Of a stretch of 64,000 bases of DNA, positions 57,129 through 64,000 are shown one piece after another. Location of the stretch: assembly GCF_011009555.1 (NCBI RefSeq), contig NZ_QXHD01000004.1, forward strand, positions 5,056,977 through 5,120,976. The letters run 5' to 3'. How positions within the stretch are numbered: the first letter of the stretch is position 1; the number at the start of each line of letters is the position of its first letter. The position numbers were made by a program, and so were the translations under genes. Below the pieces are notes generated by a model that saw nothing but the letters and a program-made list of their open reading frames with translations, was not told the origin of the DNA and did not search any database. The stretch is from Adonisia turfae CCMR0081 (lineage in GTDB: Bacteria > Cyanobacteriota > Cyanobacteriia > Phormidesmidales > Phormidesmidaceae).

Positions 57129-57473
57129 ATTCATCCCCTAAATCAACAACGGCAACAATACAAAGACACCTTGATAGTCCATGGCAAGACGTTCTAAGCA
57201 GGTCATGGATAATAACTCAATGCATAAACTTTTTGTATTATGCATACTACACAATGTATCTGAAATGGATTTGTGTATTTTTGTAATTGCCTTTCTTTTC
57301 TAATACTCCAATGCTGTGGGTCGACGACAAGGGCTTCCCGGAATTTGAAAGGTATGAATCATGACTGAATAAAGCATTGCACTTTGCGGCGATTGCTTAC
57401 CTGAAGCATCTACCTTTCAATGGCATGCTAAGTTTCAAAGTAGCACGGTTGTGAGTACGGTCTTGTATGGTTA

Positions 57474-57499
57474 TTCGGCTTTCTTTAAAGAAGGCCGAA
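57474..57499. promoter_or_regulatory. 26-bp near-perfect palindrome
   Basis: Symmetric around 57486/57487 with only one non-Watson-Crick pair (T57480/G57493); outer arms TTCGGC and GCCGAA, centre TTCTTTAAAGAA. It lies 48 bases before the ATG of the Excalibur gene. Candidate dimeric-regulator site. Confidence 0.5.
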
Positions 57500-57510
57500 C
57501 AATTTCAACG

Positions 57511-57528
57511 TGTACTATATATAGTACA
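57511..57528. promoter_or_regulatory. 18-bp perfect palindrome
   Basis: TGTACTATATATAGTACA is self-complementary throughout, 18 bases before the Excalibur gene start. The centre (TATATA) could also act as a -10 region, so binding here would block transcription. Confidence 0.55.
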
Positions 57529-57546
57529 TTTACGTACACAGGCCCC

Positions 57547-57810
57547 ATGAGATTCATCCTTTCCGCATTAATCGCCTCGCAGTTGCTTCCGGGGATTGCG
57601 ATCGCGCAGAACCAGCCCCAACTCCAGCCGGATCAACAGCAACCAGAATGCGATCCGCACTACTCCGGTGCCTGCATCCCGGTTTACGAGACGAGGGCGG
57701 ATGACGTTGATTGCGGGGAGATCGAAGACAGAAACTTTACCGTGGTGACCATCGGCGAGGACCCGCATCGATTGGACGGCGATAAGGATGGGGTGGCGTG
57801 TGAGGGGTAG
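57547..57810 (+). CDS. Small secreted protein with Excalibur-like calcium-binding motif
   Basis: 87 residues from ATG 57547; an upstream in-frame start at 57451 would run through the palindromes and is rejected. A signal peptide (RFILSALIASQLLPGIAIAQ) is followed by a Gln/Pro linker and a Cys-containing domain: CDPHYSGACIPVY, DDVDCGEI and DPHRLDGDKDGVACEG. The last segment matches the Excalibur motif (DxDxDGxxCE), a small extracellular calcium-binding unit found in many secreted nucleases. Four Cys probably form two disulfides. G+C is higher than in the flanking DNA, a hint of distinct origin. Directly downstream of two palindromes. Confidence 0.75.
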   Translation: MRFILSALIASQLLPGIAIAQNQPQLQPDQQQPECDPHYSGACIPVYETRADDVDCGEIEDRNFTVVTIGEDPHRLDGDKDGVACEG

Positions 57811-57949: not shown

Positions 57950-59479
57950 ATGGGGCCTCTATCAAAATACTGGGTAATTTTGAGAATCGATCCTGGTGGT
58001 GAAGGACGTGGATATAAGGAACAGGTGCTGCCTCTAGCGTCTGAGTTCTTCCAAGCGGAGCTTGCTGACCTGTTCGAATCGGCGGTGCCAGCTGACCGAT
58101 CCGTGCGAACGAGTGCGTCAGTTCAGGTGCTGGCTGATGCGCCAGTGCAGGTGAGAGCGCAACCCCTGGTTCAAAAACATCGCACTATTCAGACGTTACT
58201 CCATCGCCAATTTACAACCCAGTCCTCTGCCGTATCCCTACAGAATCGAGCCAAAGCTGGCCTGTGCCTGCGGGGATATGTCTCCTATGCCATTGTGGCG
58301 GAGTGCAAAATTCTAGCCAGCAAGTTTGCTGCCACAGGACAACTCTCCCATAAGGATCTGCTGCCCTACGTTCTCGATGATGATGGGGAGATCCAAATTG
58401 TGCTAGACCAAGACCCGAAACATCAACTGGTGCTCAACGGTAGCGGTAAGCCCCAGCCCTCTGCTTATCAGAGATTTTCAGTCGAAGCCCTGCGCAAGTT
58501 TAATCCCAATGGTCAACGGGTCGCTAGCTTAGACAACTGGATTCACCTGCAAGTTCGTCAAAATCAAGACCTGAAGACTGTGTTGTCAGAGCGAGGATTT
58601 TACAAATTAACTGACTGGGCATTACTCAATCGAGCCCGCCAACCCCAGTTAGAGAGTTTTTCCCCACACCAACGCCACATTATCAATGCTTTTCATGCTG
58701 TCTACCGTCGCGATCGACGCCAGCAACGACACAATCATAAATCTTGCCCAGCCCCAACCCCGACCCAACTCAACGAAATGCAACAACAGTTGCAAGCCCA
58801 GGGAATCACCATTAACCTATCGAAGCTGATTACAGAACTTAGGCAGATTGCCCAGACCCTGCGTCAGTATGCCATCTGGAGTAAAAACGGTGCACCTCAA
58901 TCAGAATCGTTAGAGGCCGCCGATCCGTATTCTGGTCTGCAAAGAGAGTTTCGTGATCCTCATTCAACAAACGATCTTGACCATATCGCTCAGCAAGAAC
59001 TGAGGGAATTCTGTGCTCAGCAACTGATCGAATGTTTGGACTGGGCCATCAATCAAGGCATTCGTGAGCATATTCAAAGTTTGCATCAGCGGCCAAGGTA
59101 CACCATATTTGCATCCAAGGTGACTGCCATCTTAAAGCTGGTTTACTGTCAGGGACAATCTCAAAGTAAAGTTGCAGATCTATTAGGCATGAAAAATCAA
59201 TCACAAGTAAGCCGTGTTCTCAATCCCACCACACTGCTCAATCGCGTGCGTTATTGGACTGTGGATCATTTCTTTAAAGTACTTTCGACAAAGGTCAGTA
59301 GTCTAAATCTGGCAGCCCTATCGACAGATCCAGACTACTTGCAGAATTTAATGCAGCACATCGAAGCCTTTGTCGATGCAGAAGCGTTCCAAGTAGCGAT
59401 TGCAGAAATCAAAACGGCCAAAAACCGTTCAATGAATAGTCTGTACGCTCAACGGTTGCGTCACTACCTAGAAAACTAG
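57950..59479 (+). CDS. Sigma-like/HTH protein of the DUF1822-CHAT cluster
   Basis: 509 residues, no signal peptide or membrane segment. The C-terminal part (about residues 400-440, GQSQSKVADLLGMKNQSQVS, RVLNPTTLLNRVRYW) looks like a sigma-70 region 4-type helix-turn-helix; the rest is mainly helical. Genes of this layout stand next to DUF1822 genes in cyanobacteria and are sometimes annotated as sigma-like (recalled). Whether it binds DNA as a sigma factor or as a regulator is unknown. ATG 57950 has CAGGG 9 bases upstream. It ends 15 bases before the DUF1822 gene, so the two form an operon. Confidence 0.7.
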   Translation: MGPLSKYWVILRIDPGGEGRGYKEQVLPLASEFFQAELADLFESAVPADRSVRTSASVQVLADAPVQVRAQPLVQKHRTIQTLLHRQFTTQSSAVSLQNRAKAGLCLRGYVSYAIVAECKILASKFAATGQLSHKDLLPYVLDDDGEIQIVLDQDPKHQLVLNGSGKPQPSAYQRFSVEALRKFNPNGQRVASLDNWIHLQVRQNQDLKTVLSERGFYKLTDWALLNRARQPQLESFSPHQRHIINAFHAVYRRDRRQQRHNHKSCPAPTPTQLNEMQQQLQAQGITINLSKLITELRQIAQTLRQYAIWSKNGAPQSESLEAADPYSGLQREFRDPHSTNDLDHIAQQELREFCAQQLIECLDWAINQGIREHIQSLHQRPRYTIFASKVTAILKLVYCQGQSQSKVADLLGMKNQSQVSRVLNPTTLLNRVRYWTVDHFFKVLSTKVSSLNLAALSTDPDYLQNLMQHIEAFVDAEAFQVAIAEIKTAKNRSMNSLYAQRLRHYLEN

Positions 59480-59494
59480 CAAGGAGTTCAGAAG

Positions 59495-60829
59495 ATGCCG
59501 TGTTCTTCGATTGATTTTAATGACTTGAGGCTGGTAGCACCGGAAGTCATTGACCTGGAGCCAGATTATTTTAATCGGGCCGTTCATGTGAGCGACCAGG
59601 TCCTTGGAGAAAGCTGTCAGTGGCAAACCTATTTGAATGCTCTAGGACTCCAAGGATTTATCCAATGGATTGCTGAGCAAGAGTCAAGTATTGTTGTCAA
59701 TCAGGAAAACTGTTCTCTTTTACAACCCGAGTATGCTGGTGCGATCGCAGCTGTTTGTAATCTGAGGATCGGTGGCTTCAAACTGTGCTTACTTGCCGCT
59801 GAGAATTTATTGAACGAGACGATCTCAATACCTGCAGCAGCGATCGATTTGCCTGAATTCTCAGCCCATTTCTATGTCCTCACTGAGGTTCAAGAAGAGC
59901 AAAAACAAGTTGTTGTGCGAGGCTATGGTCGTTATGATCAACTTGTGAGCTACCGACACCTTATTAATTTATCGGCTGACAAGCGCTGGAATTATGCCTT
60001 TCCCTTATTTCTGTTTGATACAGAACCCAATCACCTGTTGTTTAATGTACGCCTTCTAGATCCTACGGCGATGGCATTGTCAGGTGTGCTCCCCAAGCCC
60101 CCCTTACCCACCATCACCCAGATCGATCTCAACACTATTCTGTCCCAACCCCATTCATCTCAACAATGCCTCTGGCAACTCCTCCCCTGGGCAAAAGGCG
60201 CTTCACTTCTACAAAGACCTGAGTTGCTAAGAATGCTCCACCAATGGCAACAATCTCCAGAACAACCAACATCCCAACGTATCCACATCACCGAAATCTT
60301 TACCCTTTTGACCCAGCAGACGATTAACACGGCCCAATGGCTGAGTGCAGAGTTTGACGAATTATCCCAGAGCCTGGGTTGGTTCTCTAACCAAGTGTTA
60401 GCAGCAGCACCTGAGTTTCGCTCAGCCGATAGATTTAAGGTGGCCATAGATGAACTCAGATATCAAGGTATGGAGATGCCGTCTGAGTTGCGGCCTATGT
60501 TCCAAACGGTTGAATGTGACGGTGATCTCTTGCAGCTGTGTGCAGCGACTTGGGCATCAGTCACCCCCGATCCAAGTCCACACTGGACCTTATTATTAAT
60601 TTTGCGAAACCAAATGGGGGATTTTTTGCCCGATGGCCTCAAGCTCCGCGTTGCCGATCTGACAGGGACCCTGGGTGAAGAAGAAGATGCCCTAGATACT
60701 GAGTTTGTCTACGTTCGGGTGAATGCTACCCAAAACACAAAACTTGTGGCAACGATTGTTTCACCGACCGGGCAAATATTGCCAGCAGAGTCCTATAGTT
60801 TTGATACCACTGCCATTGCCATAGAATAA
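59495..60829 (+). CDS. DUF1822 family protein
   Basis: 444 residues. The body contains the DUF1822 pattern (GFKLCLLAAENLLNETISIP, PEFSAHFYVLTEVQEEQKQV, VVRGYGRYDQL) seen in cyanobacterial proteins of unknown function. Ends with VRVNATQNTKLVATIVSPTG, a beta-rich segment. No signal peptide, membrane segment or catalytic motif. Sandwiched between the sigma-like protein and the CHAT-CHASE2 protein, with which it probably works. Ribosome site AAGGAG before the ATG. Confidence 0.82.
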   Translation: MPCSSIDFNDLRLVAPEVIDLEPDYFNRAVHVSDQVLGESCQWQTYLNALGLQGFIQWIAEQESSIVVNQENCSLLQPEYAGAIAAVCNLRIGGFKLCLLAAENLLNETISIPAAAIDLPEFSAHFYVLTEVQEEQKQVVVRGYGRYDQLVSYRHLINLSADKRWNYAFPLFLFDTEPNHLLFNVRLLDPTAMALSGVLPKPPLPTITQIDLNTILSQPHSSQQCLWQLLPWAKGASLLQRPELLRMLHQWQQSPEQPTSQRIHITEIFTLLTQQTINTAQWLSAEFDELSQSLGWFSNQVLAAAPEFRSADRFKVAIDELRYQGMEMPSELRPMFQTVECDGDLLQLCAATWASVTPDPSPHWTLLLILRNQMGDFLPDGLKLRVADLTGTLGEEEDALDTEFVYVRVNATQNTKLVATIVSPTGQILPAESYSFDTTAIAIE

Positions 60830-60974
60830 TAAGTAAAAACGATAAGTGACTTATTTTAAGAAGCTTACTGTTTTGCGACTCTTTCCTGGATTGACCCTTG
60901 ATAGAGCATGCTGGCAGATTGATAACGTCTATGTTTATTCCTGGTTTATTCCTGAATTTCTCACCTAAAGTGAA

Positions 60975-63401
60975 ATGCGTACAGCGTTTGAATTAAAGAT
61001 CTGGCATCGGCAAGATAAACAATCTTGTACTTTTCTATTGCTGTGGGATAATCGCAAAAAACACCTCAACGCTAGTCTGCCCTCCTCTAAAGATATCGAA
61101 AAATGTTATCAGCGATGGCGACGCTGGTACTACAGATTTTATCAGTTAACGTCCCCACCCCACCCCAGCAATAGTGGTCGCATTAATCCAGGTTCAGGTG
61201 ATCTAGCCCATGACCTGATGGCAGCAGAAAAAGAATTAGTTCAAGCGCTTCAACGCTGGTTAGGCGCGGTGGAATTACGCGCTATTCAGCAGCAGATTCG
61301 AGATGAGGTAATACGACTGACGCCCGCCCATCCAAAATCCGAAAAAGCAGTCTTGGAACAGTCGGGCGTGGATATTTTCCTGGCCTGTGAATCTGATGAG
61401 ATGGCTAGGCTGCCTTGGGAGGCATGGGCATGGGCATTGGGTTCTGAGATTATTCGCCCTGGCTCACTGCGCATCATCCGTACAGTCATGGATGAGCCTG
61501 GCGGCAGTTGGGTGAAACCATCACGATTGGGTAAGCCTCGTATCCTCACTGTTTTAGGCGATGATCCTGGGTTGCCATTGCAGGAGGACTGGAAGGCAGT
61601 GCGATCGCTTGCACCCATTGCCACTATCGAACGATTTCTCTGGCAACCCAAGGATAGTGCTACCAAAATTAAAGAAAACTTTGCCGCTAAAATCTGTGAG
61701 AACCGCGGCTGGGATATCTTATTCTTTGCTGGTCACAGTCATGAAACCACTGTGACTGGGGGACGTATAGCCATTGCTCCCAATATTTCTTTATCCATTA
61801 GTGAAATTGAAGAATACTTGACTCAAGCAAGGGAAAATGGGCTACAGCTAGCGATTTTTAACTCTTGTAGCGGTCTGAGCATTGCTGATTCCTTGGTTGC
61901 ATTGGGACTGCAAGTCGTCGTGATGCGCGAACCCATCCGTAACGATGTAGCCCAAAGTTTCCTCAAACCTCTCTGTCAAGAGTTAGCAGCCCACAGTGAT
62001 ATTCATAGGGCGCTGCTAACCGCTAGTCATCATCTTCAATCAGCTGAAAAATTTGCCTATCCTTCTACTTATCTGATTCCATCATTATTTGGTGTTTCTG
62101 GAGTAGAGGCCTATCGCATTGAGCCGTTTGGTTGGAAACGTCAACTTCAGCAATGGTTACCCACAAAGCAAGAAGCTCTCCTAATTGCAACCGCCATATT
62201 TCTGAGTTCCGTATCTTCTATTCAGTCAGACCTTCTGGATAGACGGCTGTGGATGCAGTCGATGTACCGAGAGCGCACCAGTCAAACTGAAAAGAATGAC
62301 GCTCCGCCTATACTCCTGATTGCCATTGATCAAGAATCTATTAATAGGGCTGATAAAGAAATAGACGGTTTTCAACTTCATCCAATGGATCGTGAATACC
62401 TTGCTCAATTAATTCAGCAGTTATCAGGCTCATCTATCCAAGTAATTGGTATCGATTATCTTCTAGATACACAGGAACCCAGAGAAGACAAATTGGTGGA
62501 TAGTATCCATCAAGCAATAGTGCACCATAATACTTGGTTTGTATTTGCAACTAGAGAACGAGATTCCCTGCGGCCACGTGACAGTATCGCAGACCCTCGG
62601 TGGAGCTTACATGGTGATGCCTATGCTCGATACTGGCAAGTTAAGCTGCCTGATGATGAAACCTGCGCTCAAACATGCCCTTTTGCCTATACGTTGGCAC
62701 TCGTCGATACGTTAAGTGAAAACTCTCAACTTAATCCTCCCCAACCTAATTTAGAGAATAAAGCTGATTTGCAGCAACAAATACATGATTTTCTTGATAC
62801 AGCCAAGAACGATGAACCTAGTGACATCAGTGCTTTTTTAAAAATAGTTCGTTCACCCTTCAATTTACCGCTGATTATTGACTACTCCATTTCACCAGAT
62901 CAGATTTACCAGTTGATTCCGGCTTGGAAGTTTTTGACCTATTCAGAAAACCCAAAAACGTTCAACCCAAAAATTGCAATTATCGCGTCTGGTGGATATG
63001 TGGATGCTAGCGATAACCATCCTCCATTACCGGCTCTGACCTACTGGTGTAACTCAAAATATCGAGAAGCAGATATCCAGAGTGATTGCCCTAAATCATT
63101 TACTGGTGGCGAACTTCATGCCTACACAACTCACCATTTATTGTCATCCTATCAAGTAGCTCGTATCCCAGACTTATGGATGATTCTTATGGCATCACTA
63201 CTAGGAAAATGGGCAACCCTAACGTTAACTCAACAGCAAGCCCATCAACGTCAAAAATGGCTATTTGCATTATCAATCACGACAGGGCTTTATGGATTTT
63301 GGGGATTACAGGCTTATATCTGGGCTAATGTTTTGATTCCTCTATTATTTCCATCAAGTGTATTTTGGATTTATGTCGTTGGGATTACTCAGAAAAAGTA
63401 A
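60975..63401 (+). CDS. CHAT protease domain-CHASE2 sensor membrane protein
   Basis: 808 residues. N-terminal cytoplasmic region with a CHAT (caspase-like) domain at about 150-390: His254 in LFFAGHSHE and Cys298 in AIFNSCSGLS form the catalytic dyad. A first membrane helix (about 399-417, ALLIATAIFLSSV) is followed by a CHASE2 extracellular sensor (about 435-725; AIDQESINRADKE, VIGIDYLLD, ASGGYVD) and three C-terminal membrane helices (about 732-805). This is a membrane sensor with a protease output facing the cytoplasm. The 145-base gap after DUF1822 may hold its own promoter, but all three genes run in the same direction. No kinase or cyclase output is present. Confidence 0.9.
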   Translation: MRTAFELKIWHRQDKQSCTFLLLWDNRKKHLNASLPSSKDIEKCYQRWRRWYYRFYQLTSPPHPSNSGRINPGSGDLAHDLMAAEKELVQALQRWLGAVELRAIQQQIRDEVIRLTPAHPKSEKAVLEQSGVDIFLACESDEMARLPWEAWAWALGSEIIRPGSLRIIRTVMDEPGGSWVKPSRLGKPRILTVLGDDPGLPLQEDWKAVRSLAPIATIERFLWQPKDSATKIKENFAAKICENRGWDILFFAGHSHETTVTGGRIAIAPNISLSISEIEEYLTQARENGLQLAIFNSCSGLSIADSLVALGLQVVVMREPIRNDVAQSFLKPLCQELAAHSDIHRALLTASHHLQSAEKFAYPSTYLIPSLFGVSGVEAYRIEPFGWKRQLQQWLPTKQEALLIATAIFLSSVSSIQSDLLDRRLWMQSMYRERTSQTEKNDAPPILLIAIDQESINRADKEIDGFQLHPMDREYLAQLIQQLSGSSIQVIGIDYLLDTQEPREDKLVDSIHQAIVHHNTWFVFATRERDSLRPRDSIADPRWSLHGDAYARYWQVKLPDDETCAQTCPFAYTLALVDTLSENSQLNPPQPNLENKADLQQQIHDFLDTAKNDEPSDISAFLKIVRSPFNLPLIIDYSISPDQIYQLIPAWKFLTYSENPKTFNPKIAIIASGGYVDASDNHPPLPALTYWCNSKYREADIQSDCPKSFTGGELHAYTTHHLLSSYQVARIPDLWMILMASLLGKWATLTLTQQQAHQRQKWLFALSITTGLYGFWGLQAYIWANVLIPLLFPSSVFWIYVVGITQKK

Positions 63402-63561
63402 CCTAAGTCCCCTTAACAATATGCTACTTTTTACTACTTTCTAGGGGGCAAACTGCATAAGCATTATCTGCCCACACTTATATGATTGTAGTAGTATTCC
63501 GGCTATTCCTTATTCTCAATCATCAATCTATTCTGTGAGTTCCTTGGGAGGGAATTAGAAA

Positions 63562-64000
63562 ATGTCTCAGTCCTTAATGAATCAAAGATCTCAAGATGAT
63601 GATCATGATGGTGAAAAGCCATGGGTCACTCGAAACACAAAACCCAATGACTCTGTTGATGGCTCAGAGGGGAAGCGAAGATCCCATGACAATGATCGTG
63701 ATGGGGAGAAGCCATGGGTCCCTCGAAACAGAAAGTCCAATGACCCTGTTGATGGATCAAAGGATAAGCAAAGGATGTTTAAACTACCAATCTTTAAAGA
63801 CGACGAAGATGTATGGGTTACTCGATTAGTTGCTGAACAGTTTGTGGATGACTTAGGCAAAGGTAATTACACGAGAGCCTGGAAAAACTTAGTGTCCTCT
63901 AAAGAAAGTGAGTTCTCTTCAGACATACTTAAGGAACAATGGGAAGAGCACACTAAAAACAAAGGTCGGTTCAAACAGAGAATTGGGTCAAAACTCGTGG
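63562..64000 (+). CDS. DUF3887/NTF2-like protein with tandem repeat, truncated at the window end
   Basis: The frame opens at ATG 63562 and is still open at 64000 (146 codons). The N-terminal part holds two copies of a 31-residue charged unit (period 93 bases) each with DGEKPWV, RN and the pattern VDGS; in between are Asp/Lys-rich segments. Then follows VTRLVAEQFVDDLGKGNYTR, AWKNLVSSKESEFSSDILKE and QWEEHTKNKGRFKQRIGS, the pattern of DUF3887/NTF2-like domains. No signal peptide is evident. It follows the CHAT-CHASE2 gene by 160 bases and may belong to the same cluster. Confidence 0.7.
   Translation, partial: MSQSLMNQRSQDDDHDGEKPWVTRNTKPNDSVDGSEGKRRSHDNDRDGEKPWVPRNRKSNDPVDGSKDKQRMFKLPIFKDDEDVWVTRLVAEQFVDDLGKGNYTRAWKNLVSSKESEFSSDILKEQWEEHTKNKGRFKQRIGSKLV

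Follow-up and report, generated by a model that had tools for sequence, protein, structure and literature searches.

A cyanobacterial locus pairing a membrane CHAT-CHASE2 protein with DUF1822 and a divergent sigma factor: a predicted caspase-like signalling operon and its candidate promoter motif

EACC2-caspase proteins carry variable tails, CHASE2 among them, and are encoded beside an extracytoplasmic function (ECF) sigma factor and a DUF1822 protein; for these systems Kaur, Iyer, Burroughs and Aravind (eLife 2021; PMC8195603) proposed sensing, autopeptidase activation and a transcriptional step. In type III-E CRISPR, the CHAT protease Csx29 cleaves Csx30, which inhibits a sigma factor of the ECF type (PMC10028731). 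Here we describe a locus of Adonisia turfae CCMR0081 that is related to the former and comparable to the latter. It lies in a 64-kb stretch of the 8.66-Mb genome, referred to below as the window (contig NZ_QXHD01000004.1, positions 5,056,977 to 5,120,976), where genes for a sigma-like protein, a DUF1822 protein and a membrane CHAT-CHASE2 protein are followed by a DUF3887-like gene. The open reading frames (ORFs) confirm the row of four same-strand genes that a first-pass annotation of the window had reported (Table 1). Our preferred explanation, which we hold tentatively, is that a signal from outside the cell would activate the CHAT protease, that DUF1822 would then release the sigma factor, and that the sigma factor would turn on genes close by and, in related genomes, additional proteases of the caspase family. 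That the locus forms a one-operon signalling system at all is part of this same joint judgement, which falls somewhat short of an even chance.

The triad of sigma factor, DUF1822 and CHAT-CHASE2 protein is already in print as a 2021 prediction, and the window cluster belongs to that predicted kind (PMC8195603). The published systems combine a constant N-terminal domain and a caspase-like domain with a variable tail, which can be CHASE2 with membrane helices, and have ECF sigma and DUF1822 neighbours (PMC8195603). In the window we find the His-Cys dyad, the CHASE2 tail and the DUF1822 neighbour, as well as a sigma neighbour that is recognised by its family profile and not by single-sequence Pfam search; unlike the published ECF neighbour, it is so divergent that Pfam misses it (PMC8195603). 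DUF1822 is called a TPR protein in that paper, whereas our model predicts a short helical part with a beta-rich part on either side. No DUF928 partner, promoter motif or target genes are named in the excerpted text of the paper (PMC8195603). What we add is the constant core formed by sigma factor and DUF1822, a DUF928-type gene as the usual fourth gene, a bipartite motif with its targets, and the sites of that motif at the window locus. Among the open-literature papers listed, no title or abstract opening reported a promoter motif or target genes of such sigma factors, searches with the exact strings TGCATAAG and TGAATAAG included.

Other described systems share parts of this layout. Csx29, Csx30 and CASP-sigma are likewise encoded at one locus, as a CHAT protease, a further protein and a sigma factor of the ECF type, and there proteolysis relieves inhibition of the sigma factor (PMC10028731). 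That system is guided by RNA through Cas7-11 and its TPR-CHAT protease is cytoplasmic (PMC10028731), whereas the window protein has a CHASE2 membrane sensor and no TPR match. By analogy, the window system may work in the manner of Csx29/Csx30/CASP-sigma without being one, a possibility that we advance as a component of the tentative explanation above. Regulated proteolysis of the RseA/DegS type, named in PMC10028731, has in common the order of envelope signal, protease, anti-sigma and sigma factor. A gene cluster of a Nostoc genome, reported from one of seven species surveyed, has a CHASE2 sensor gene near a DUF928 gene; it differs in its WD40 proteins, and the excerpted text draws no link to a protease or sigma factor (PMC5587647).

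The membrane protein of the window matches CHAT (E 4.7e-8) and CHASE2 (E 1.7e-15) in Pfam. The complete dyad of His254 and Cys298 reported earlier is present, in the sequences GHS and NSC, and both residues are invariant in 14/14 aligned proteins of the closest type, a set that includes the window protein and its 98%-identical ortholog. Across the family they occur together in 62 of 67 aligned members; two of the five exceptions are incomplete and lack the region, and the remaining three are large proteins built differently. Hydropathy gives three clear membrane segments (about residues 403-421, 734-752 and 786-804) and a weak fourth, so that the CHASE2 sensor of the first-pass annotation stands, with three of its four membrane helices clear and the fourth weak. 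This arrangement is consistent with a protease part inside the cytoplasm and, after it, a CHASE2 part facing outwards. The region N-terminal to CHAT is conserved, with invariant W48, Y52 and W95, and probably corresponds to EACC2; the best match of the protease N-terminus to alpha-hemoglobin stabilising protein (E 0.016) was judged to be chance. No TPR match was found in the protein by Pfam, and its named relatives are cyanobacteria. With the dyad intact, the CHAT part is predicted to be an active protease.

The sigma-like protein, searched alone, has no Pfam match at E 0.05 and weak NCBIfam sigma-factor matches at residues 379-426 (best E 0.011), and its relationship was established through its family. 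Genes in the sigma position at other loci form three groups, namely class 7, which is the window type (25 loci), class 5 (32) and class 3 (36). The class 7 family profile aligns with the class 5 sigma-70 relatives over 361 columns along regions 2 and 4 (hhalign, E 9.2e-20). Members of class 5 match Sigma70_r4 in 29/32 and r2 in 12/32 cases, and the class 5 profile matches PDB sigma factors at both regions. Since class 7 matches class 5 by profile, and class 5 in turn matches solved sigma factors, profile comparison identifies the window protein as a divergent sigma-70 relative. Taken singly, 6/25 class 7 members have a weak region-4 (r4_2) match. Class 3 has an ECF sigma match in 18/36 members at E 0.05 (best 6.6e-7), and its links to the other classes are weak (hhalign probability 11% to class 5 and 6% to class 7). 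In the structural model of the window protein, helices cover residues 381-430 at a predicted local distance difference test score (pLDDT) near 90, in keeping with the helix-turn-helix (HTH) character assigned to it at first pass. The model as a whole is loose (predicted template modelling score, pTM, 0.47), with poorly modelled stretches at residues 44-70 and 313-340 (pLDDT under 50), and a whole-chain fold search with it gave no usable PDB match.

To describe the neighbourhood, we used DUF1822 as the anchor, which was found in the window's own genome and in 30 more of the 39 related genomes searched. We read 101 regions, among them the locus of the near-identical ortholog, and took the 98 with a DUF1822 gene of the main cluster as the locus sample; DUF1822 matches on several short contigs or in fragments, and genome G030, were left out of the 101. 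A gene of one of the sigma classes lies directly upstream of DUF1822 on the same strand in 93/98 loci, and the five others comprise one contig end, two fragments, one truncated sigma-like ORF and one unexplained case. A protease gene lies within two genes downstream of DUF1822 in 56/98 loci (class 3 29/36, class 5 12/32, class 7 14/25, others 1/5). The sigma/DUF1822 pair is therefore the constant core, followed by the protease at part of the loci. Viewed from the protease, in the best 80 of 566 matches in named genomes, a sample that favours close relatives, DUF1822 lies within two genes upstream in 62/80 loci, with a sigma class before it in 53/80; in 16/80 it was not found upstream. These counts strongly support the co-occurrence of CHAT-CHASE2, DUF1822 and sigma-like genes that had been anticipated from the window, and the DUF3887-like gene drops out of the conserved set. 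At four of the loci without DUF1822 upstream (L154, L158, L167 and L171, checked with Pfam), a TPR-CHAT gene directly precedes the CHAT-CHASE2 gene, so that two CHAT proteins stand side by side; at L175 a TPR-CHAT gene lies between the DUF1822 and CHAT-CHASE2 protease genes.

Sigma and DUF1822 genes also share their history. Their distance correlation is 0.94 in class 7 (25 loci), 0.87 in class 5 (31) and 0.84 in class 3 (36), whereas shuffling of partners within genomes yields mean correlations of 0.29, 0.53 and 0.28, with 2, 0 and 0 of 2000 shuffles reaching the observed value. The two genes are thus inherited as a unit, even at loci without an adjoining protease. For the pairing of protease and DUF1822, the within-genome shuffles are informative in class 3 only (1/2000 reach the observed value); in classes 7 and 5, 261 and 503 of 2000 reach it, because few genomes there have more than one copy with a protease. 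From adjacency and shared inheritance, DUF1822 appears to be a dedicated partner of the adjoining sigma factor, most likely its inhibitor. The DUF1822 protein of the window matches PF08852 at E 1.3e-37 and is modelled as compact (mean pLDDT 90), with its two beta-rich parts flanking the short helical part; a fold search found no PDB match at E 0.001 or better. Short sequence matches to major histocompatibility complex (MHC) proteins (best E 7.3e-5) were judged to be chance, and the single sigma-DUF1822 gene fusion (L150) was set aside as proof of contact, its contig having 2.8-fold coverage and its sigma part being split. Two loci encode longer DUF1822 ORFs, of 650 and 640 residues (L109:7474-9426 and L123:7107-9029), whose extra N-terminal part matched none of the three sigma classes by profile.

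The fourth gene of the window differs from that of its relatives. Its DUF3887 match (E 0.021) is below cut-off in the ORF truncated by the window edge; rightward extension completed the gene, and the full protein scores 31.9 bits against a cut-off of 31.8. By phmmer at E 1e-3 such a gene occurs in 2/101 regions, the window and its near-identical ortholog, and in 0/80 named loci, and we reject it as a conserved component of the system, the place that the first-pass annotation had given it. Relatives usually have a DUF928-type gene there: it follows the protease in 61 of the 78 named loci with a further gene (53 of one group, 8 of another), and in 34/55 loci of the first sample (class 7 7/14, class 5 7/12, class 3 20/29), six of the 55 ending at that point. 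In the commoner group of the named set, 21/33 members match DUF928, and the group profile does so at E 3.7e-11. The N-terminus is hydrophobic in 33/33 and 25/28 members of the two groups, which suggests export, and the DUF928-type protein is probably exported. The DUF3887-like protein of the window has no hydrophobic N-terminus, and we predict its gene to be under the control of the sigma factor, not a conserved part of the system.

This prediction comes from a motif search over the upstream regions of class-7 sigma genes (52 after removal of redundancy), which gave TGCATAAG-N12-AGAAATATA with a log-likelihood of 260 versus 102-109 in four shuffled sets. It is clear in 30/52 regions, which are separated from the rest by a score gap between 11.8 and -1.2. 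Read as TGCATA and AAATAT, the two halves would have a 16-bp spacing as in a bacterial promoter, a reading of our own. A scan of the window with the motif model gave one strong match, 5' of the DUF3887-like gene (score 19.5; the next scored 10.6, and no other exceeded 11), and a second match (score 18.7) was found to the right of the window, 84 bp 5' of the LuxR-like gene that the extension had brought into view. Neither site belonged to the regions used for training. A pattern for the window subclass, TGCATARS-N12-ACAYYTA, has exactly these two matches in the genome and none for its backwards control; as the pattern was drawn from these two sites and from the same-subclass relative L108, its news is that the genome holds no other site. 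In L108, two such sites lie 3' of the protease gene, one of them 99 bp 5' of a LuxR-like gene, and in L133 one match to the weaker pattern lies 3' of the protease gene (score 18.3). The motif search for class 5 sigma genes stayed near the shuffled level. The 27 upstream regions of class-3 sigma genes gave a weaker, only suggestive motif, ttTGCAtAAa (log-likelihood 43 versus 23-24 shuffled), similar to the class-7 motif in its first half, and related promoters may be used by class 3 sigma factors.

Sites of a strict general pattern, TGMATAAG-N12-AGMVMTA, were then counted, with the pattern backwards as control. The 39 related genomes hold 60 exact sites versus 3 in the control, and 35/60 sites lie 40-110 bp 5' of an ORF of at least 150 residues, versus 158/1200 random positions. 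With class 7 presence called at E 1e-10 (21 of these first 39 genomes), the motif occurs in 14/21 genomes with class 7 and 0/18 without (Fisher 7.9e-6). In a wider set of 156 genomes of the class, some common to the first set and with up to 10 candidates per genome scored at E 1e-30, class 7 is present in 42; the motif occurs in 24/42 of these (65 sites, control 7) versus 18/114 others (Fisher 9.2e-7). One-mismatch scanning of the window's own genome was rejected as too near background (17 versus 10 in the control). The motif thus goes with the sigma family, and its recognition by class-7 sigma factors is predicted.

The genes behind these sites form a coherent set. From 66 sites of both patterns we set aside one repeat, 11 sigma genes and 6 sites followed by no more than a short ORF, leaving 48 non-sigma target genes, of which 20 encode TPR, 9 CHAT, 5 a caspase domain (Peptidase_C14) and 5 PPC; CHAT is probably undercounted because several loci end within the gene. 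A rough estimate of CHAT enrichment among these targets was discarded, as it assumed a total of 8000 genes. Single targets encode a LuxR regulator, a type IV pilin-like protein, a trypsin-like protease and an RTX/cadherin-like surface protein. The window's own genome, with 59 CHAT and 10 DUF1822 matches overall, has four general-pattern sites; the genes 3' of them encode two further class-7 sigma factors, a caspase-domain protein and a ShlB/FhaC-type secretion protein. The caspase-domain gene, which also encodes DUF4384 (L272:3828-6166, contig C11:4801827 onwards; caspase domain E 3e-20), begins 59 bp 3' of its site, and the two-partner secretion gene (L271:5447-7397, C11:5681446 onwards; E 1.6e-38) 241 bp 3' of its site. 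By eye, the start of the caspase-domain product, with twin arginines and then a hydrophobic stretch, has the look of a Tat export signal, and the secretion gene is close to another, divergent CHAT gene at C11:5680329-5680721. This shared promoter-like motif suggests a role for sigma factors of this kind in turning on additional proteases of the caspase family. Together with the sigma profile match, this gene set supports transcription as the output, as had been proposed from the window alone.

Combining these results, we chart a model in which the CHASE2 part would sense something outside the cytoplasmic membrane, a role that the exported DUF928-type protein of the adjoining gene perhaps shares in most relatives. 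The outside signal would switch on the cytoplasmic CHAT protease, which would act on DUF1822 as the likely sigma inhibitor and so set the sigma factor free. The freed sigma factor would read promoters of the TGMATAAG-N12-AGMVMTA form, or of the window subclass; the targets would be the DUF3887-like gene and the LuxR-like regulator at the window locus, and in relatives the sigma operon itself, TPR-CHAT, caspase-domain, and surface or secretion genes. The step from protease to sigma factor is drawn from the published CHAT precedent of Csx29 cutting Csx30 (PMC10028731), and DUF1822 as inhibitor and substrate, like the inward direction of signalling, is accordingly put forward conditionally. The protease families of RseA/DegS differ from CHAT, and the anti-sigma factor there is itself membrane-spanning. 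A more ambitious version, which we regard as doubtful, is that a membrane caspase-like receptor cuts DUF1822, that the sigma factor induces secretion and surface genes as well as further TPR-CHAT and caspase-domain proteases, and that the DUF928-type protein forms part of the outside sensor, making up a transcription-relayed caspase cascade in filamentous cyanobacteria. A role in cell suicide is possible, because the predicted targets include caspase-domain genes.

Several observations weigh against the preferred model. No relationship of DUF1822 to Csx30, or to any known anti-sigma fold, was detected: its profile found no Csx30 chain among PDB sequences at E 10, and none is among the best 50 of 754 fold matches at E 10. 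No protease lies within two genes of DUF1822 in 42/98 loci, and the sigma/DUF1822 pair may there act without a protease or with a distant one. The motif is absent from 22/52 class-7 upstream regions, among them the 250 bp upstream of the window's own sigma type (a score of -4.1 at the near-identical L057). Among the 48 targets, a few come from the near-identical genomes G000 and G004 and are not independent. The 18 motif-bearing genomes without class 7 in the wider set hold 20 sites versus 9 in the control (p 0.03), an unexplained excess. In the previously unseen genomes the link is weaker, with the motif in 15/31 genomes with class 7 (29 sites, 10 of them in a single genome, control 7) versus 18/99 without (20 sites, control 9; p 0.0017), which suggests that the strict pattern fits the window's own family best.

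Gene order and the shared inheritance of sigma factor and DUF1822 would be explained equally well if DUF1822 stabilised or co-activated the sigma factor and the target of the CHAT protease were the sigma factor or the protease itself, proteolysis then ending or reshaping the response. The poorly modelled stretches of the class 7 protein could be cut, whereas DUF1822 is modelled as compact, and Kaur et al. proposed self-cleavage of the constant caspase part, or auto-activation (PMC8195603). As the sole characterised CHAT-sigma precedent cuts the inhibitor and not the sigma factor (PMC10028731), we consider such a role for DUF1822 unlikely. Association is not recognition, and the motif could instead belong to another regulator, its link to class 7 reflecting shared ancestry of gene clusters while the sigma-like protein recognises something else; the sites in genomes without class 7 fit this idea. 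Among the first 39 genomes, however, all motif-bearing ones (14/14) have class 7. At the window locus the motif has a different second half, and this window variant is confined to that locus in its own genome, where the common variant lies 5' of two other class-7 sigma genes. The LuxR-like gene, with relatives in 7/101 regions, occurs too rarely to explain the motif, and a different regulator seems to us quite unlikely.

The caspase-domain and TPR-CHAT genes behind the motif would also suit a defence or cell-death device, in which the CHAT protease is switched on by signals of phage or damage and transcription arms further caspase-family killers, and EACC2 systems have been framed as counter-invader and apoptosis-like (PMC8195603). 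PADLOC, however, matches neither the three operon proteins nor the fourth one, the sensor faces outwards, and targets such as the two-partner secretion transporter and the RTX/cadherin-like and type IV pilin-like proteins fit regulation of the envelope or surface; we rate a defence device as the least probable of these alternatives, if by little. Should the preferred model of a released sigma factor hold, the protease-inhibitor-sigma layout of type III-E CRISPR would have a CRISPR-free counterpart in envelope signalling. The motif and the short list of candidate targets turn what was a domain-based guess about CHAT and caspase-like proteins of large cyanobacterial genomes into a direct test.

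Table 1. Features of the locus, in window coordinates; positions beyond 64000 lie to the right of the window
Feature	Position	Strand	Basis
Divergent sigma-70-type factor, class 7, 509 aa; region 4-like HTH at about aa 379-426	57950-59479	+	Family profile, weak NCBIfam matches, model
DUF1822 protein, 444 aa; proposed sigma partner and inhibitor	59495-60829	+	Pfam PF08852, adjacency, model
Membrane CHAT-CHASE2 protein, 808 aa	60975-63401	+	Pfam, alignment, hydropathy
CHAT match, aa 218-361	61626-62057	+	Pfam; His254 codon 61734-61736, Cys298 codon 61866-61868
CHASE2 match, aa 403-743; predicted outside the membrane, between first and later membrane segments	62181-63203	+	Pfam, hydropathy
Promoter-like motif TGCATAAG-N12-ACACTTA, 108 bp 5' of the fourth gene; predicted sigma target	63454-63480	+	Motif-model scan
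DUF3887-like protein, 192 aa in full, ending at 64140 beyond the window edge	63562-64000 in window	+	ORF, Pfam
LuxR-like regulator, 199 aa, next after the DUF3887-like gene	64398-65081 (= L001:9375-10058), right of window		GerE E 2.7e-8

Immediately 5' of the operon, at 57451-57810 of the window, lies a small ORF with an Excalibur calcium-binding motif (E 3.8e-5), and such an ORF is also found 5' of the operon at the near-identical locus L057.

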